Part shown: positions 639 through 26,356 of the stretch, piece by piece
How positions within the stretch are numbered: position 1 is the first letter of the stretch
Layout of the letters: each line of letters opens with the position of its first letter
From: Candidatus Poribacteria bacterium
Lineage (GTDB): Bacteria > Poribacteria > WGA-4E > WGA-3G
Reading direction: 5' to 3'
Length of the DNA stretch: 57,194 nt
NCBI GenBank assembly: GCA_022825665.1
Contig: JAJDWI010000022.1
Span: 1-57,194 of the forward strand
Notes under the pieces: model-generated
What the model was told of the DNA's origin: nothing
Database searches by the model: none
Seen by the model: the letters and a program-made list of their open reading frames with translations, nothing else
Program-made: the position numbers and the translations under genes

Positions 639-2519
639 ATGGCGTTTTTAAATCCTGCTGCGTTTTACTTGTTAGGAATCATTCCAATTGTGATTGCGTT
701 GCATTTTCTCAAGCTGCGCAGGCAACGTTACGTAGTTCCGAGTATGATGCTTTGGCGTGCTAGTGCTGAGGATCAGAAAGCAAACGTTCCTTTTCAACGA
801 CTACGTAATATATTGCTACCAATCATACAATCCCTTCTCTTACTTCTTATAATCACCGGTGTTGCGCGTCCTGCGCTACAAATTCCGGGCATAATACACG
901 GTAGAATAGTATATATTATTGACAACTCCGCAAGTATGTTATCAAGAGAGTTAGGAGAAACTCGATTGGCACATGCAAAACAGGAAGTGTTGAAGCATAT
1001 TGACCAAGTTTCTGCTGACGGAGGTATGATTATGGTCACGCAGGCTCCTACACCTTATATTCAACAAACATTCACAACAGATAAAGAAAAACTACGGACT
1101 GCAGTAGATAGTATTCAACCAACACACAACGGAGGAAGATTGACATCAGTTATTGATAACGCGTTGCGGTATGTTGATGCACCACAGGATCAAATATATT
1201 ATATTACCGATTCACCTGAAAACATACCTGTTACCTCTGTACCAATCAATGTTATTACGGTTGGTGATGAAGCTGAAAATATCGGAATTGTCAAATTCAG
1301 AGTGGAAAAAATTGCGAATCAATACCATGTTTTTGCTGCAATACAGAATTGGACTGACACAGATAAAGTTGTTGAGACTCATCTTAAATTAGAAGATGGT
1401 ATACCTATTAATGAAAAAATAACATCTATACCCTCAGGTGAGGTAAAAAATGTCTTCTTCAATATAAATGCTGAAGAAAGGTTAGAAGGTGTTGCTCTTA
1501 GCGTACACCTCGTTGATGTGGAAGACGATTTTGAAATTGACAATAGCACATGGGGAATACTTAATGATAAAAACCAATTCCGAATTCTTCTCGTCAGTAA
1601 CAGAAACTTACCATTCCTGAATCTACTATTGGAAAGCTATGGAGAACACGTCGAAATCCAAAAGGTTTCATCAGACGAATTTCACGGTACAGGAGATGCG
1701 GATATCGTCATTTTTGATAGAGAAGTTCTCTCGGAACAAGGACAGTTGAACATCCATCAATCTCAAGGGGCAATCTATATCAATTGGCAAGATGAATTGC
1801 CATTCCTAACAGATTCGTCTTTTGAAGTCGTAAAGACACCGGTTCGTGTTATCAAGGAAAACATAACGCATCCAATAATGCAAGACGTATCACTAATGAA
1901 TATGCCAATAAAAGAATCTGTTCAAAGAAAACTACCTTTATGGGGTGTCCCACTTGTTGAAACGGAGAAAGGTTCTATTGTATGGATTGGAGAAGATTTA
2001 GGGAGACAGTATTTGGTGTTCGAATTTGATGCGTTTAATCCAGAATTCTCTCCTCTCACAACGACTATTCCTGATGGACCATTGTTGATTTATCAATGTT
2101 TAACGTGGTTGGAGTCAGGAACACTCCCTGTTGGATCTATTGATAGACAGACTCACAATGTTGGACTGAATTTTAAAACAGGTGACCAATTAAGATTTGA
2201 ATTATCTGGTGAGGACACCTCTACCTTTCGTGTGCAAAAACCAGATTCCACTTTAGTAGAATTAGACAGTGATGTATTCACAGATACAAACCAAATAGGT
2301 GTATATTCCATACTTAATGAGGATTCAATCTATGAAAGGTTTGCTGTCAATTTACTTGATCAAAATGAATCTGCCTTAACACATTCCTCAACTGAATCAC
2401 CTGAAGTAGCAAAAGAAAAGGAAAGTCTTCAACCTATCACTCGACAGGTATGGCAATGGGTTGTATTATTCGCTGTCTGTCTGCTCATCTGTGAGTGGTG
2501 GTTCTATCACCGTCAATAA
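639..2519 (+). CDS. BatA-type membrane protein with von Willebrand A domain
   Basis: The 626-residue protein has the N-terminal aerotolerance-regulator (BatA, PF07584-like) module: two hydrophobic helices at about residues 5-21 and 57-75 around a basic stretch containing LKLRRQR. A VWA domain follows with the metal-site signature DNSAS at about residue 95. The long middle part is beta-rich, and a final transmembrane helix lies at about 603-621. Bat-type proteins sit in the inner membrane and are usually linked to MoxR ATPases, but none is present here. TATAAT lies almost on the ATG and no clear Shine-Dalgarno is visible. The last 54 bases overlap the convergent selenothioredoxin gene. Confidence 0.78.
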   Translation: MAFLNPAAFYLLGIIPIVIALHFLKLRRQRYVVPSMMLWRASAEDQKANVPFQRLRNILLPIIQSLLLLLIITGVARPALQIPGIIHGRIVYIIDNSASMLSRELGETRLAHAKQEVLKHIDQVSADGGMIMVTQAPTPYIQQTFTTDKEKLRTAVDSIQPTHNGGRLTSVIDNALRYVDAPQDQIYYITDSPENIPVTSVPINVITVGDEAENIGIVKFRVEKIANQYHVFAAIQNWTDTDKVVETHLKLEDGIPINEKITSIPSGEVKNVFFNINAEERLEGVALSVHLVDVEDDFEIDNSTWGILNDKNQFRILLVSNRNLPFLNLLLESYGEHVEIQKVSSDEFHGTGDADIVIFDREVLSEQGQLNIHQSQGAIYINWQDELPFLTDSSFEVVKTPVRVIKENITHPIMQDVSLMNMPIKESVQRKLPLWGVPLVETEKGSIVWIGEDLGRQYLVFEFDAFNPEFSPLTTTIPDGPLLIYQCLTWLESGTLPVGSIDRQTHNVGLNFKTGDQLRFELSGEDTSTFRVQKPDSTLVELDSDVFTDTNQIGVYSILNEDSIYERFAVNLLDQNESALTHSSTESPEVAKEKESLQPITRQVWQWVVLFAVCLLICEWWFYHRQ

Positions 2520-3092
2520 ACTCACAAGGATCCGTTCTACCAATCTCTCCTTCGGCATAGCCCCAAGAATTGTCCTCACAACATTCCCTTCATAGAATAG
2601 TTTGTATGTTGGTGTGCCTCGGATTTGATATTCTGCTGTTTTTATAGGGTTGTCATTCACATCTAACTTTGCTACAACGAATACATCGCGAAATTCTACA
2701 GCAATTTCAGAAACCACCGGTTTCATCAATACGCAGTAGATTCAGTAATCAGACTTGAATTCTACCAAAACAGGTAATTCTATGTCACGGATAGTGCTAT
2801 CAAAGGACTCATCTGATAACTCAAGTGGAATACCAGAATACTTTCCAAAATGACTTGCAATCAGGACTAAGTCGAGAATGTTTATAACGTTGTCTCCATT
2901 GATATCTGGATTGGGAGACAGTTCGTCATTTGGTGTTTCACCAATGTGTGAGGCTACGTAAGTCAAATCAAGTGTATTTACAACACCATCCGTATTCACA
3001 TCTGATTCAAGTAGACTATCAAATGTTGTTTCTTGTGCAGACACGACCGATACCAGGCATAGAGCAAGAATAAAGTATAAACATTGTTTCAT
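2466..3092 (-). CDS. Exported dockerin-thioredoxin selenoprotein (UxxC; TGA read as Sec)
   Basis: Reading through one in-frame TGA (2742-2744) gives a 208-residue protein with no frameshift. Residues 1-20 are a signal peptide ending VSA-QE. Two dockerin type I calcium-loop repeats follow: DVNTDGVVNTLDL at about 32-44 and DINGDNVINILDL at about 61-73. The thioredoxin fold starts around LPVLVEFKSDY; the TGA at residue 117 occupies the first Cys of the redox motif (U-I-Y-C-V-L-M-K-P beside family W-C-G-P-C-K-M-x-P). The cis-proline motif GTPTYKLF is intact further on. A hairpin at 2710-2724 fits a bacterial SECIS, and selA lies at 24881. The start at 3092 follows AGGAAAAG and is 11 bases after the E2 stop. 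Alternative: a nonsense-mutated pseudogene, which would leave the motif match and hairpin to chance. Confidence 0.8.
2698..2744 (-). promoter_or_regulatory. Candidate bacterial SECIS element after UGA-Sec
   Basis: On the minus strand, 23 bases separate TGA (2744-2742) from the apical loop of the stem GAAACC-GGU-GGUUUC (2724-2710). Published bacterial SECIS criteria ask for a loop 16-37 bases after the UGA with G among its first two positions; this loop starts GG. A lower stem can form between CUACUGC, just after the UGA, and GCUGUAG at about 2704-2698, with one U-U mismatch. In the known mechanism SelB binds such a hairpin to deliver Sec-tRNA. Confidence 0.65.
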
Positions 3093-3102
3093 ACGTCTTT
3101 TC

Positions 3103-4464
3103 CTATACAAGTAATAAATAAGGGTTTTGAATATATTGTGACACTGTTTGTAAAAACTGGGCAGCAGGAGCACCATCAATAATTCTGTGGTCAAATGTTA
3201 AGCTTAGAGTCAACATGTGCCGTATTACGATTTCATCATTGTGTACAATTGGTTTCTTAAGAATTCGACCTACACCAAGTATTGCAGACTCAGGTGGGTT
3301 TATTATAGGTGTAAATGCATCAACACCATAATTGCCAAGATTCGTCAATGTGAAAGTCCCGTCTTGAAGTTCCCCTGGCGTGAGTTGATTATTACGCGCT
3401 TTTTCTGCTAAGGATTTAACCTGGACCGAGATTTCACCTAAACCTATCTTATCCACATTACGGACAACCGGTACGACAAGTCCATCTTCTAATGCAACTG
3501 CAACTCCAATGTTGATATTTGCTAATAGGTGTATTCCTTCATCAGTAAGTGTTGCGTTTATATTTGGATGTTCACGCAAAGCAGTAGCAACAATCTTAAT
3601 TATTAGATCGGTGTAGGTGATATTTATCTCTTGTTCTTGTACTATTTCATTGAGCTGCCCGCGTAACACAACAAGGTTTGTAGCGTCTACTTCGGTATGA
3701 AGTGTGACACTTGCGTTTGTTTGAACGCTCATCGACATCCGTTCAGCAATTATTTTGCGGATACCGCTAAGTTCAATTACCTCTGATGCTGCAGGTTCTG
3801 TTCGTAACACCTGAGCAGGAATTTCATCCGCGACTTGCAGCACGTCATCGCGTACAATTCTACCTTCAGGACCTGACCCGTCAATCGTTGTAATATCAAG
3901 ACCGAATTCCTTTGCTAAACGTCGGGCAAGTGGCGAGGCTTTAAGACGTTCAGTTCCTGTTGATGTTTCCCCTCTTGTTTCAATGAAACGATTGATGTCA
4001 CTTTCAAGAATACGACCACCAGGACCAGATGCTTTGACTTGTGTCAAGTCAATGTTGAGTTTCTCCGCAAGTTCTTTTGCTGTGGGTGAAACCTTTATAT
4101 TTGAGGGTATAGTTGAAGAAGGCTGTGTTTTTGTTGTGATGGAGGGTTTGGCTGTCGTCTTCTCAGATTGGTCTGTCTGAGGTGGCACATCAATAACATC
4201 TGCTTCCACACGTTCCACCTCTTCACCAGGTGCTGCGATGACCGCTAATAGTGCATTGACAGGTACATCACTTCCTTCTTCAGGAAGAATTTGTGCAATA
4301 ACACCATCAGCAGGGGATTCCTGTTCATGAACAACTTTATCAGTTTCTATCTCTAATAGGGGTTGACCTTCCGTAACGGTATCTCCCTCCTTAACAAGCC
4401 ATTTCCCAATTTTTCCCTTCGTCATCGTCTGGTCCATTTGGAGCATTCTAAGTTCAACAGCCAT
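3103..4464 (-). CDS. Dihydrolipoyllysine acyltransferase, E2 of a 2-oxoacid dehydrogenase complex
   Basis: The 453-residue protein has the full E2 layout: an N-terminal lipoyl domain with lipoylated Lys43 in EIETDKVVHE, a Pro/Thr-rich linker, two peripheral-subunit-binding domains (around TAKELAEKLNID and ARRLAKEFGLDI), and the acyltransferase domain ending in the catalytic motif FDHRIIDGAP. It would transfer acyl groups from E1 through lipoamide to CoA. E1 and E3 are not in the window, so the substrate (pyruvate, branched-chain or acetoin type) cannot be set. ATG 4464 was chosen because AGGAGAG precedes it. It lies in an operon between a small unknown gene and the selenothioredoxin. Confidence 0.88.
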   Translation of the reverse strand: MAVELRMLQMDQTMTKGKIGKWLVKEGDTVTEGQPLLEIETDKVVHEQESPADGVIAQILPEEGSDVPVNALLAVIAAPGEEVERVEADVIDVPPQTDQSEKTTAKPSITTKTQPSSTIPSNIKVSPTAKELAEKLNIDLTQVKASGPGGRILESDINRFIETRGETSTGTERLKASPLARRLAKEFGLDITTIDGSGPEGRIVRDDVLQVADEIPAQVLRTEPAASEVIELSGIRKIIAERMSMSVQTNASVTLHTEVDATNLVVLRGQLNEIVQEQEINITYTDLIIKIVATALREHPNINATLTDEGIHLLANINIGVAVALEDGLVVPVVRNVDKIGLGEISVQVKSLAEKARNNQLTPGELQDGTFTLTNLGNYGVDAFTPIINPPESAILGVGRILKKPIVHNDEIVIRHMLTLSLTFDHRIIDGAPAAQFLQTVSQYIQNPYLLLV

Positions 4465-4490
4465 CAATCTCTCCTATATCAATTAATATT

Positions 4491-24060: not shown

Positions 24061-24876
24061 TTATTGTTGTATATCCTTGACACACCTGAATCCAATCGTA
24101 CTTCCTGTTGTAAGATGATACCATCGATCAGACACGCGTAGGTCAGTCCTGCTACCACTCCAACCTCCGCCCCGCAATATACGAAAATTTTCGTCATCAG
24201 GTGCAGTTTCTCTACCGTAACGTGGATTCTGTTTAGGTGATGTCGCATACATTTCTGCGTTATACTCATCAAAACACCATTCCCAAACATTACCTGCCAT
24301 ATCATATAGACCGAACCCATTTGGAGCAAAACTACCAACAGGGGCACTCCATCTCCAAATATCTCTACCCTCTTCACCACCGAAATTGGCATCATTGCGT
24401 GTAATTATATCACCCGATGGATACATTTTTCCAACAAGATTGCCACGTGCTGCATATTCCCATTCCGCTTCAGTTGGTAACCTTTTATTTGCCCAACTTG
24501 CATATACAACGGCATCCTGCCATGTAACGTTTACTACCGGAGCATCGGGTTTATTAAATTTACTGTCGTGCCATAAAGGTGGTGGTGGATAACCCGTGGT
24601 AATAACAAACTGTTGGTATCGTGCATTTGTAACCTCATGAATATCCATGTAGAATGCATCAATAAATACTTCATGAACAGGTAACTCATCCATATCACCT
24701 ATATTTTCTTTGTGGTTACCCATCAGAAAAGTTCCAGATGGAATTAACTGCATTTCTGCGTCATCAATGTGAGATACAATTTGTTCAGGTAACGCAGTTG
24801 AGTCATAGGTATTCTGAGGTGTCTCTGTGCATCCACATAACAGACAAAGTAAAATGATTAATATACCCAACACCAT
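24061..24876 (-). CDS. SUMF/FGE-domain lipoprotein without the catalytic cysteine pair
   Basis: A lipoprotein signal (LLCLLCGC, about residues 8-15) precedes a formylglycine-generating-enzyme-type domain: LIPSGTFLMGN, EVTNARYQQF, RLPTEAEWEYAARG, NVWEWCFDEY and the closing LRGGGW...GFRCV. True FGE enzymes oxidise a sulfatase Cys using two Cys shortly after the RGG motif. Here that stretch reads GWSGSRTDLRVSDRW, with no Cys. It is therefore more likely a non-oxidase family member (binding or accessory role). The ATG lies four bases after the selA stop, so it is in an operon with selA. Confidence 0.8.
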   Translation of the reverse strand: MVLGILIILLCLLCGCTETPQNTYDSTALPEQIVSHIDDAEMQLIPSGTFLMGNHKENIGDMDELPVHEVFIDAFYMDIHEVTNARYQQFVITTGYPPPPLWHDSKFNKPDAPVVNVTWQDAVVYASWANKRLPTEAEWEYAARGNLVGKMYPSGDIITRNDANFGGEEGRDIWRWSAPVGSFAPNGFGLYDMAGNVWEWCFDEYNAEMYATSPKQNPRYGRETAPDDENFRILRGGGWSGSRTDLRVSDRWYHLTTGSTIGFRCVKDIQQ

Positions 24877-24880
24877 GATG

Positions 24881-26320
24881 TCATTTTGAATTATCTAACT
24901 TTGATGTAATCTCTTCTGCTGTCTGAATCAACAATTCCTGTTCTTCTTCATATAACGTTCGCACATCAAACCACAGTTGATCGGTTTCTATCCGACCAAT
25001 AACTGGTGTGTTGCCGTGTCTAAAATGCTCTGAAAGTGTTTCTGCAGATACTGTTTGTGGTTTAAGCACAACTGCAATACTCGGTAATGTTTCTACAGGT
25101 AGTGATCCGCTACCAATTTCCGATTGAGTTTCTGATATTTCAACTGTAACTATGTCCTCAAATATCACCTGTAGTCTGTCAGCAATATGTTCAGCAGCAA
25201 CTTGTAACTCGTCAATTGATCGAGTATACCGTTGAATCATTGGGAAATGTTCTGATAGTGTGTCATGATTCTGGTATGCTTGTAGTGTTGCAGAGAGAGC
25301 GGCGATAGTCAGCTTATCTATCCGCAGTGTACGCATTAGAGGATTCTTACGGATTTGATGAATCCAATTTGCTTTTCCAACGATTATTCCTGCCTGGGGA
25401 CCACCAAGTAACTTGTCACCACTAAATGTCACAATGTCCACGCCACTGGAAATTCTTTCTGCGACAACCGGTTCGTAAGGTAGTCCATATTGTGTCAAAT
25501 CAATCAACGCACCACTACCTAAATCTTCCATAGTTGTGATGCCACGTTCTGTACCGAGTTCTGTCAATTCATGCATTTCAGGTGTAGTGGTAAATCCTAT
25601 AATCTTATAATTACTCGGATGTACCTTCAAAATGAGTGCTGTATTCTCATTAATTGCTTCAGCATAATCGCGAATATGTGTGCGATTGGTAGTACCTACC
25701 TCTCTAAGAATCGCACCACTTGCTGCCATTACATCTGGAATTCGGAATGCACCACCAATTTCTATCAGTTCTCCTCGTGATACGATTACCTCTTTATCCT
25801 TCGCTACGGTTTGTAGGGCAATCAATACTGCTGCTGCATTGTTATTAACGACAGTTGATGCTTCACAACCGGTTAATTGTTGTAAGAACGGTTCGGTTAT
25901 CCTGTCACGGTGTCCACGTTTACCTGTTTCAAGATCAAATTCAAGATTGACATAATTCTTTGCAGCATTAACCAGACTATCACATGCAGCTGGTGATAAC
26001 AGGGATCGACCAAGGTTAGTATGTGTTACAGTGCCAGTAGCATTGATGACTTTTCGGAGTGGTGGACTTGTTATTTCTTGAATTCGTTGTAATGCTAATT
26101 CTGCATATTCTGATAACTCAGGGAGTATCAGGTCACTATCTCCTTTCAAGATTTCCGTCCGTAAATCAGAGACAATAGACCTTAAAACCTGTCTTACAAG
26201 GGTTCGTGAATAAGATGACAGTAGATTTTGTATTTCTGGTAAAGATAATAAATTATCTATCTTAGGGATTTTTCGTAGAGGATTATTATTTTTGTTTTTT
26301 TGTGATGTTTCTGATGTCAT
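24881..26320 (-). CDS. selA: L-seryl-tRNA(Sec) selenium transferase (SelA)
   Basis: About 479 residues matching SelA over its length: LRKIPKIDNLLSLPE near the start, NATGTVTHTNLGRSLLS, NNNAAAVLIALQTVA, and the PLP lysine in TFSGDKLLGGPQAG. The enzyme converts Ser-tRNA(Sec) to Sec-tRNA(Sec) using selenophosphate. ATG 26320 is preferred because 12 further upstream codons begin with a TTG and lack family similarity. selB, selD and selC were not found in the window. Its presence supports reading the TGA at 2742-2744 as selenocysteine. The SUMF gene follows after four bases. Confidence 0.92.
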   Translation of the reverse strand: MTSETSQKNKNNNPLRKIPKIDNLLSLPEIQNLLSSYSRTLVRQVLRSIVSDLRTEILKGDSDLILPELSEYAELALQRIQEITSPPLRKVINATGTVTHTNLGRSLLSPAACDSLVNAAKNYVNLEFDLETGKRGHRDRITEPFLQQLTGCEASTVVNNNAAAVLIALQTVAKDKEVIVSRGELIEIGGAFRIPDVMAASGAILREVGTTNRTHIRDYAEAINENTALILKVHPSNYKIIGFTTTPEMHELTELGTERGITTMEDLGSGALIDLTQYGLPYEPVVAERISSGVDIVTFSGDKLLGGPQAGIIVGKANWIHQIRKNPLMRTLRIDKLTIAALSATLQAYQNHDTLSEHFPMIQRYTRSIDELQVAAEHIADRLQVIFEDIVTVEISETQSEIGSGSLPVETLPSIAVVLKPQTVSAETLSEHFRHGNTPVIGRIETDQLWFDVRTLYEEEQELLIQTAEEITSKLDNSK

Positions 26321-26356
26321 TTCTTTAGTGCATGTAATAAGTTGTTTATGTATCAA

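Follow-up and report, generated by a model that had tools for sequence, protein, structure and literature searches.

A dockerin-fused thioredoxin family of sponge-associated Poribacteria with a probable selenocysteine in its active site

The window analysed here is a stretch of 57,194 nucleotides (assembly GCA_022825665.1, contig JAJDWI010000022.1, positions 1 to 57,194) from a sponge-associated member of the Poribacteria, and it carries a gene in which an in-frame TGA is very probably decoded as selenocysteine (Sec), through SelABCD and a hairpin, in a predicted exported dockerin-thioredoxin. Judged from its sequence, the product is most likely an extracytoplasmic selenothiol-disulfide oxidoreductase. 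Standard gene calling would end the gene at the TGA, and ordinary annotation would in this way cut the protein at its active site. The prokaryotic selenoproteome would gain an exported, dockerin-bearing Sec-thioredoxin family that is expanded in sister lineages.

The gene and its reading frame

2466..3092, minus strand: dockerin-selenothioredoxin gene, 208 codons plus TAA, UGA as probable Sec at residue 117 (frame, Pfam, orthologues)
2742..2744, minus strand: probable Sec codon, in-frame TGA (sequence and orthologue column)

The gene, for which the first-pass annotation had given no strand, runs on the minus strand from an ATG at 3092-3090 to a TAA stop at 2468-2466, and its product has 208 residues if the lone in-frame TGA at 2744-2742, which is residue 117, is read through. 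The TGA had been placed at the first Cys of the thioredoxin CxxC, with no frameshift around it, and both statements were borne out. In sequence matches to solved thioredoxins of the PDB, residue 117 fell on the first Cys of the active site and Cys120 on the second one (U117-I-Y-C120), and Pfam searches of the read-through product found Dockerin_1 and Thioredoxin in one unbroken frame, TGA included.

Domains, docking and redox role

3033..3092, minus strand: predicted signal peptide, about residues 1-20, MKQCLYFILALCLVSVVSAQ, SPI-like, without lipobox (read from sequence; orthologue N-termini)
2856..3005, minus strand: type I dockerin, residues 30-79 (Pfam PF00404, alignment)
2529..2825, minus strand: thioredoxin domain, residues 90-188 (Pfam PF00085, PDB match, AlphaFold model, Foldseek)

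A signal peptide had been suggested ahead of the dockerin, and a probable one could be read by eye, with visible n, h and c regions, a VSA/QE junction and no lipobox Cys; the three regions can also be recognised in the orthologues, whose alignment keeps the hydrophobic N-terminus. The dockerin itself was confirmed (Dockerin_1, E 1.1e-9, 38.8 bits against a cut-off of 22.9), but what had been described as two dockerin repeats is a single type I domain made of two F-hand halves, with loops D31-N33-D35-D42 and D63-N65-D67-D74 whose calcium ligands are invariant in 25 sequences. The thioredoxin domain scored 70.1 bits (E 1.8e-19, cut-off 23.5), with the active site in the context YUIYC and a cis-Pro motif at T160-P161-T162; U117, C120 and P161 are invariant in the 25 sequences, in an alignment that writes Sec as C. 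An AlphaFold model covered the dockerin and the thioredoxin domain with confidence (mean pLDDT 85) and superposed on E. coli thioredoxin 2trx_A with a TM score of 0.92 by target length (Foldseek). The TrxA equivalog models of NCBIfam were missed, at 69 against a cut-off of 138 and 62.9 against 96.8, and the WCGPC signature is absent. With YUIYC and sub-cut-off TrxA scores, the protein is thus best described as a thioredoxin-domain protein and not as TrxA.

In the mechanism proposed, the host's own SelABCD would decode the TGA as selenocysteine, assisted by the hairpin just downstream, and the product, with its signal peptide, calcium-binding type I dockerin and U-x-x-C thioredoxin domain, would be exported. 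Outside the cytoplasm the selenol would attack a disulfide or an oxidised thiol in proteins of the envelope or the surface, the selenylsulfide would be resolved by Cys120, DsbD would re-reduce the U117/C120 pair, and the dockerin would hold the protein on cohesin-bearing partners. Export, redox partner, docking and substrate are what we infer here; the proposed links to DsbD and to cohesins, like the substrate, draw on presence in the genome only.

Attachment to cohesin is favoured by the invariance of both calcium loops and by the occurrence of cohesin domains above the Pfam cut-off in 39 of 40 related genomes, that of the window included, which has 11 matches. It is nonetheless quite conceivable that the dockerin serves as a calcium-dependent folding or surface-retention module without cohesin binding. 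Cellulosomal dockerins usually have Ser/Thr pairs at loop positions that are occupied by Ile, Leu or Thr in the window protein, and dockerins are also found in this group N-terminally in a solute-binding protein and within proteins that have a cohesin of their own. The former is of the dipeptide/oligopeptide type (L137, 777-2498) and has its dockerin directly after the signal peptide, so that a dockerin in this position has the look of a module used generally by exported proteins of the group. An example of the latter is one exported protein in which a cohesin match is combined with a dockerin at the C-terminus (L136, 180-1541), which suggests chains of cohesin-dockerin contacts.

The redox role is open to a second reading, a possible though not the favoured one, in which Sec is correctly assigned but the protein is an oxidant or isomerase (DsbA/DsbC-like), or a partner of a peroxide or methionine-sulfoxide reductase, and not a general disulfide reductase. 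In the thioredoxin fold the potential is set by the two residues that separate the redox pair, and exported thioredoxin-fold proteins fill all such roles; with YUIYC in place of WCGPC, and so with IY where TrxA has GP, the redox potential may well differ from that of TrxA, and the protein may act as an oxidase or isomerase or in sulfenic-acid or peroxide chemistry. A reductive role would fit the nearest solved relatives of the domain, which by PDB sequence match are cytoplasmic thioredoxins, and the full-length DsbD gene of the genome, which has a CAAC C-terminal domain.

Conservation of the probable Sec codon and of the sequence beyond it

Orthologues were compared from 54 Poribacteria genomes, one per genome and with the window included (n=54). 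The first-pass annotation had proposed that the TGA would be kept or would align with Cys, and at the residue-117 column the codon was TGA in 50 of the 54, TGT in two (L053/G011 and L054/G008) and TGC in two (L085/G019 and L098/G022), with no other codon. All 36 aligned paralogous thioredoxin domains of sister genera also have TGA at the active-site column. Random stops elsewhere in the orthologues, which had been named as grounds for rejecting the Sec reading, were absent, with no further stop in frame 0 over the 72 codons after the TGA in any of the 54; the other two frames held 1-10 and 1-7 stops, at least one in every sequence. The dN/dS ratio after the TGA was about 0.16 (median of 102 within-genus pairs) versus 0.13 upstream, and on these ratios selection past the TGA is purifying.

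It could be argued that the TGA is a real stop, in a pseudogene, through a sequencing error or at the end of a dockerin protein of only 116 residues, as gene calling would have it and as the use of TGA as a stop elsewhere in the genome might suggest. With the same codon in 50 independent genomes, Cys in four, and purifying selection on a stop-free sequence past it, this is very improbable; retention of the same TGA by dozens of species points to a real selenoprotein family and not to a broken gene.

In a tree test the Cys orthologues did not group as a single clade (p-AU 0.032, on a tree that excluded row L010). Since the two Cys pairs are thus separate, Sec and Cys have, on this tree, exchanged at least twice. 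Loss of the Sec machinery was considered as the cause and rejected: G008, G011, G019 and G022 all have tRNA-Sec, so that Sec is replaceable and species went over to Cys without having been compelled to by a lost Sec apparatus. Such natural exchanges in close orthologues make the cost and gain of extracytoplasmic Sec comparable in matched proteins. TAG stops inside some relatives were also considered as a second recoding. Among the examples that were read, no TAG lies at the active site, where these paralogues carry Cys (TGT/TGC), and it was taken as the gene's own terminator.

A bSECIS-like hairpin after the UGA

2710..2724, minus strand: bSECIS-like apical hairpin, GAAACC-GGU-GGUUUC (folding, covariation, published criteria)

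The window hairpin has a 6-bp stem and a GGU loop 23 nt after the UGA, and the first 60 nt fold with -16.1 kcal/mol. A published model of the bacterial SECIS specifies a loop of 3-9 nt with G in the first two positions, a stem of 4-16 bp, a distance of 16-37 nt from the UGA and an MFE of -7.5 or below (PMC13188914), and the window hairpin fits it. These criteria are loose: they were passed by 38 of 44 distinct Sec orthologues and 1 of 4 Cys orthologues, and also by 60% of synonymous recodings. Per sequence the hairpin test was weak (p 0.053 for the window), as it was in the paralogues, and a test of local folding energy was moderate, with a mean z of -1.29 in Sec orthologues, +0.45 in Cys orthologues and -0.61 to +0.37 in controls. 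The case for the hairpin rests, for this reason, on the named stem together with covariation, and with modest single-sequence statistics and loose criteria it is the covariation that carries weight.

Among the 32 orthologues with the window's stem type, changes on both sides of a pair were found in 22 cells, against a shuffled mean of 9.4 (0/500), whereas controls in slid registers gave at most 2. Stem pair 23/33 occurs as AU, GC, GU and CG, and pair 22/34 as CG, AU and GU; within the genus, the choice among synonymous Val codons (GTT, GTC, GTG) tracks Lys, Arg or Ala on the opposite arm. The covariation partly follows clades. Stem scores in Sec orthologues were 13.8 observed versus 8.0 after synonymous recoding, and in Cys orthologues 4.5 versus 4.5; an acceptable hairpin is absent from three of the four Cys orthologues, and the fourth, L098, passes the loose test. 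Another subclade has CUGU-GGUC-ACAG in a slightly shifted position.

Selenocysteine machinery and the use of TGA

24881..26356, minus strand: selA, selenocysteine synthase (TIGR00474, 612 bits; Pfam SelA, 4.7e-158)

The machinery to be expected with a Sec reading was found in full: a canonical tRNA-Sec (78 bits, anticodon UCA), selB 60 bp upstream of the tRNA-Sec gene (selC), selA, and selD, whose own product requires Sec. The active site of this SelD is CAGU, which serves as an internal control for the reading of TGA as Sec in this genome. Within the window, selA is separated from the selenoprotein gene by about 22 kb and adjoins a gene for an FGE-sulfatase-domain protein (24061-24876); selB-selC are on another contig (G000:C140). 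In order-level relatives (G063, G065-G069) the SelA model gave 6-9 matches, which are SelA-like PLP enzymes, versus 1-3 in the window's family.

Some candidate bacterial lineages recode TGA, but a reading as Trp or Gly, be it throughout the genome or through a suppressor tRNA, is negligibly probable here, with TGA ending 9 of the 37 long ORFs of the window (and hence no global recoding), no internal TGA in SelA, SelB, E2 or DsbD, Cys as the only alternative residue at the column, and the canonical tRNA-Sec. Of the further read-through candidates listed for the window, four were scanned, and in none of these did a Pfam domain continue across the TGA.

Gene neighbourhood and the 3' overlap

3093..3105, minus strand: RBS-like AGGAAAAG, overlapping the E2 stop codon (sequence, synteny)
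3103..4467, minus strand: 2-oxoacid dehydrogenase E2 (lipoyl, E3-binding, acyltransferase), upstream neighbour (domains, synteny)
639..2519, plus strand: BatA/VWA protein, convergent neighbour (domains, synteny)

The E2 stop and the ATG of the selenoprotein gene are 10 nt apart, and with this short gap and the RBS-like element overlapping the E2 stop, translational coupling of the two genes is likely. E2 adjoins the selenoprotein gene in all orthologous loci examined of genus g1 and is absent beside it in g2 and g3, where the BatA neighbour is kept. At its 3' end the gene overlaps the BatA/VWA gene in antisense by 54 bp (2466-2519), and at the codons nearest the C-terminus, in and beside this overlap, codon identity within the genus reaches 98%. 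This conservation was considered as support for the Sec reading and set aside; the overlap explains it better and is probably its cause, consistent with dual coding. Elsewhere in the window, the intergenic region at 240-420 contains short imperfect inverted and direct repeats (CACCAGCGGTGCGAAAGGTGT, related ACACCTTTCGCCCCTCTGGGGCTT) that resemble a dispersed palindromic repeat.

Family range and paralogues

In a profile search of 85 genomes of the phylum, the gene was confined to the family to which the window belongs (f1); outside it there were only thioredoxin-domain matches of marginal score, and on this search the dockerin-selenothioredoxin is specific to one Poribacteria family. Its active site reads U-x-[YF]-C, in most cases UIYC or UPFC. 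Sister genera have longer, exported-type paralogues in which a predicted signal peptide, a dockerin and beta-rich repeats precede a C-terminal UxxC thioredoxin, and such large paralogues (L106, L108, L084, L087, L089, L092 and others) often lie directly beside the short gene. A further paralogue carries Cys (CPFC). In genus g2, lipoprotein-like thioredoxins with a lipobox (GC) have an in-frame TGA in WUGAC or WUGVC (L105, in tandem at 4280 and 4878; L129, 6920-7237; L131, 789-1106), and they would be a further type of exported Sec-thioredoxin.

Slaby et al. (2017) reported selA and selB in most sponge-symbiont bins and found them missing in most close references (PMC5649159). An expanded set of exported Sec-thioredoxins is, as a hypothesis, one candidate use of this symbiont Sec machinery. 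A more speculative and rather unlikely proposal is that several of them (dockerin-thioredoxin, dockerin-repeat-thioredoxin and lipoprotein thioredoxin) act together in a cell-surface redox system of Poribacteria held by cohesin-dockerin contacts; if true, such a system could partly explain the enrichment of Sec machinery in sponge symbionts.

Comparison with known systems

Thioredoxins with a UxxC active site are an established selenoprotein family (PMC9312934, PMC13188914), and the GOS survey described Trx-like selenoprotein families and several domain fusions of Trx-fold selenoproteins (PMC2398784). The window protein shares with UxxC selenoprotein thioredoxins the thioredoxin fold, a probable Sec at the first active-site Cys, Cys homologues and a bSECIS-like hairpin after the UGA, and differs from them in its predicted export, its dockerin fusion, an active site of the U-x-[YF]-C and not the UGPC-like type, and its restriction to one Poribacteria family. 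The HUIPC-motif family NF047660 and SaoT (NF040730) are likewise small Trx-fold UxxC selenoproteins, but no NCBIfam selenoprotein model reached its cut-off for the window protein; NF047660 scored 16.5 bits against 105, and SaoT was not among the NCBIfam matches.

Exported DsbD-dependent proteins of the thioredoxin fold include TlpA/ResA and DsbC/DsbG, whose extracytoplasmic thiol chemistry, fed by DsbD, would be shared if the proposed role holds; by sequence the window protein has a classical thioredoxin domain and is not a member of the TlpA or DsbC/G families. With type I dockerin proteins (PF00404) it shares two F-hand calcium loops, predicted export and cohesins in the same genome, but its dockerin is attached to a redox selenoprotein and not to a carbohydrate-active enzyme. 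The first-pass annotation had regarded the fusion of dockerin and selenothioredoxin as an undescribed architecture, and no description of one was found in the open-access literature searched or among the NCBIfam models. Taken with these systems, this is very probably a real selenoprotein family, new in its architecture and lineage and known in its chemistry and decoding.
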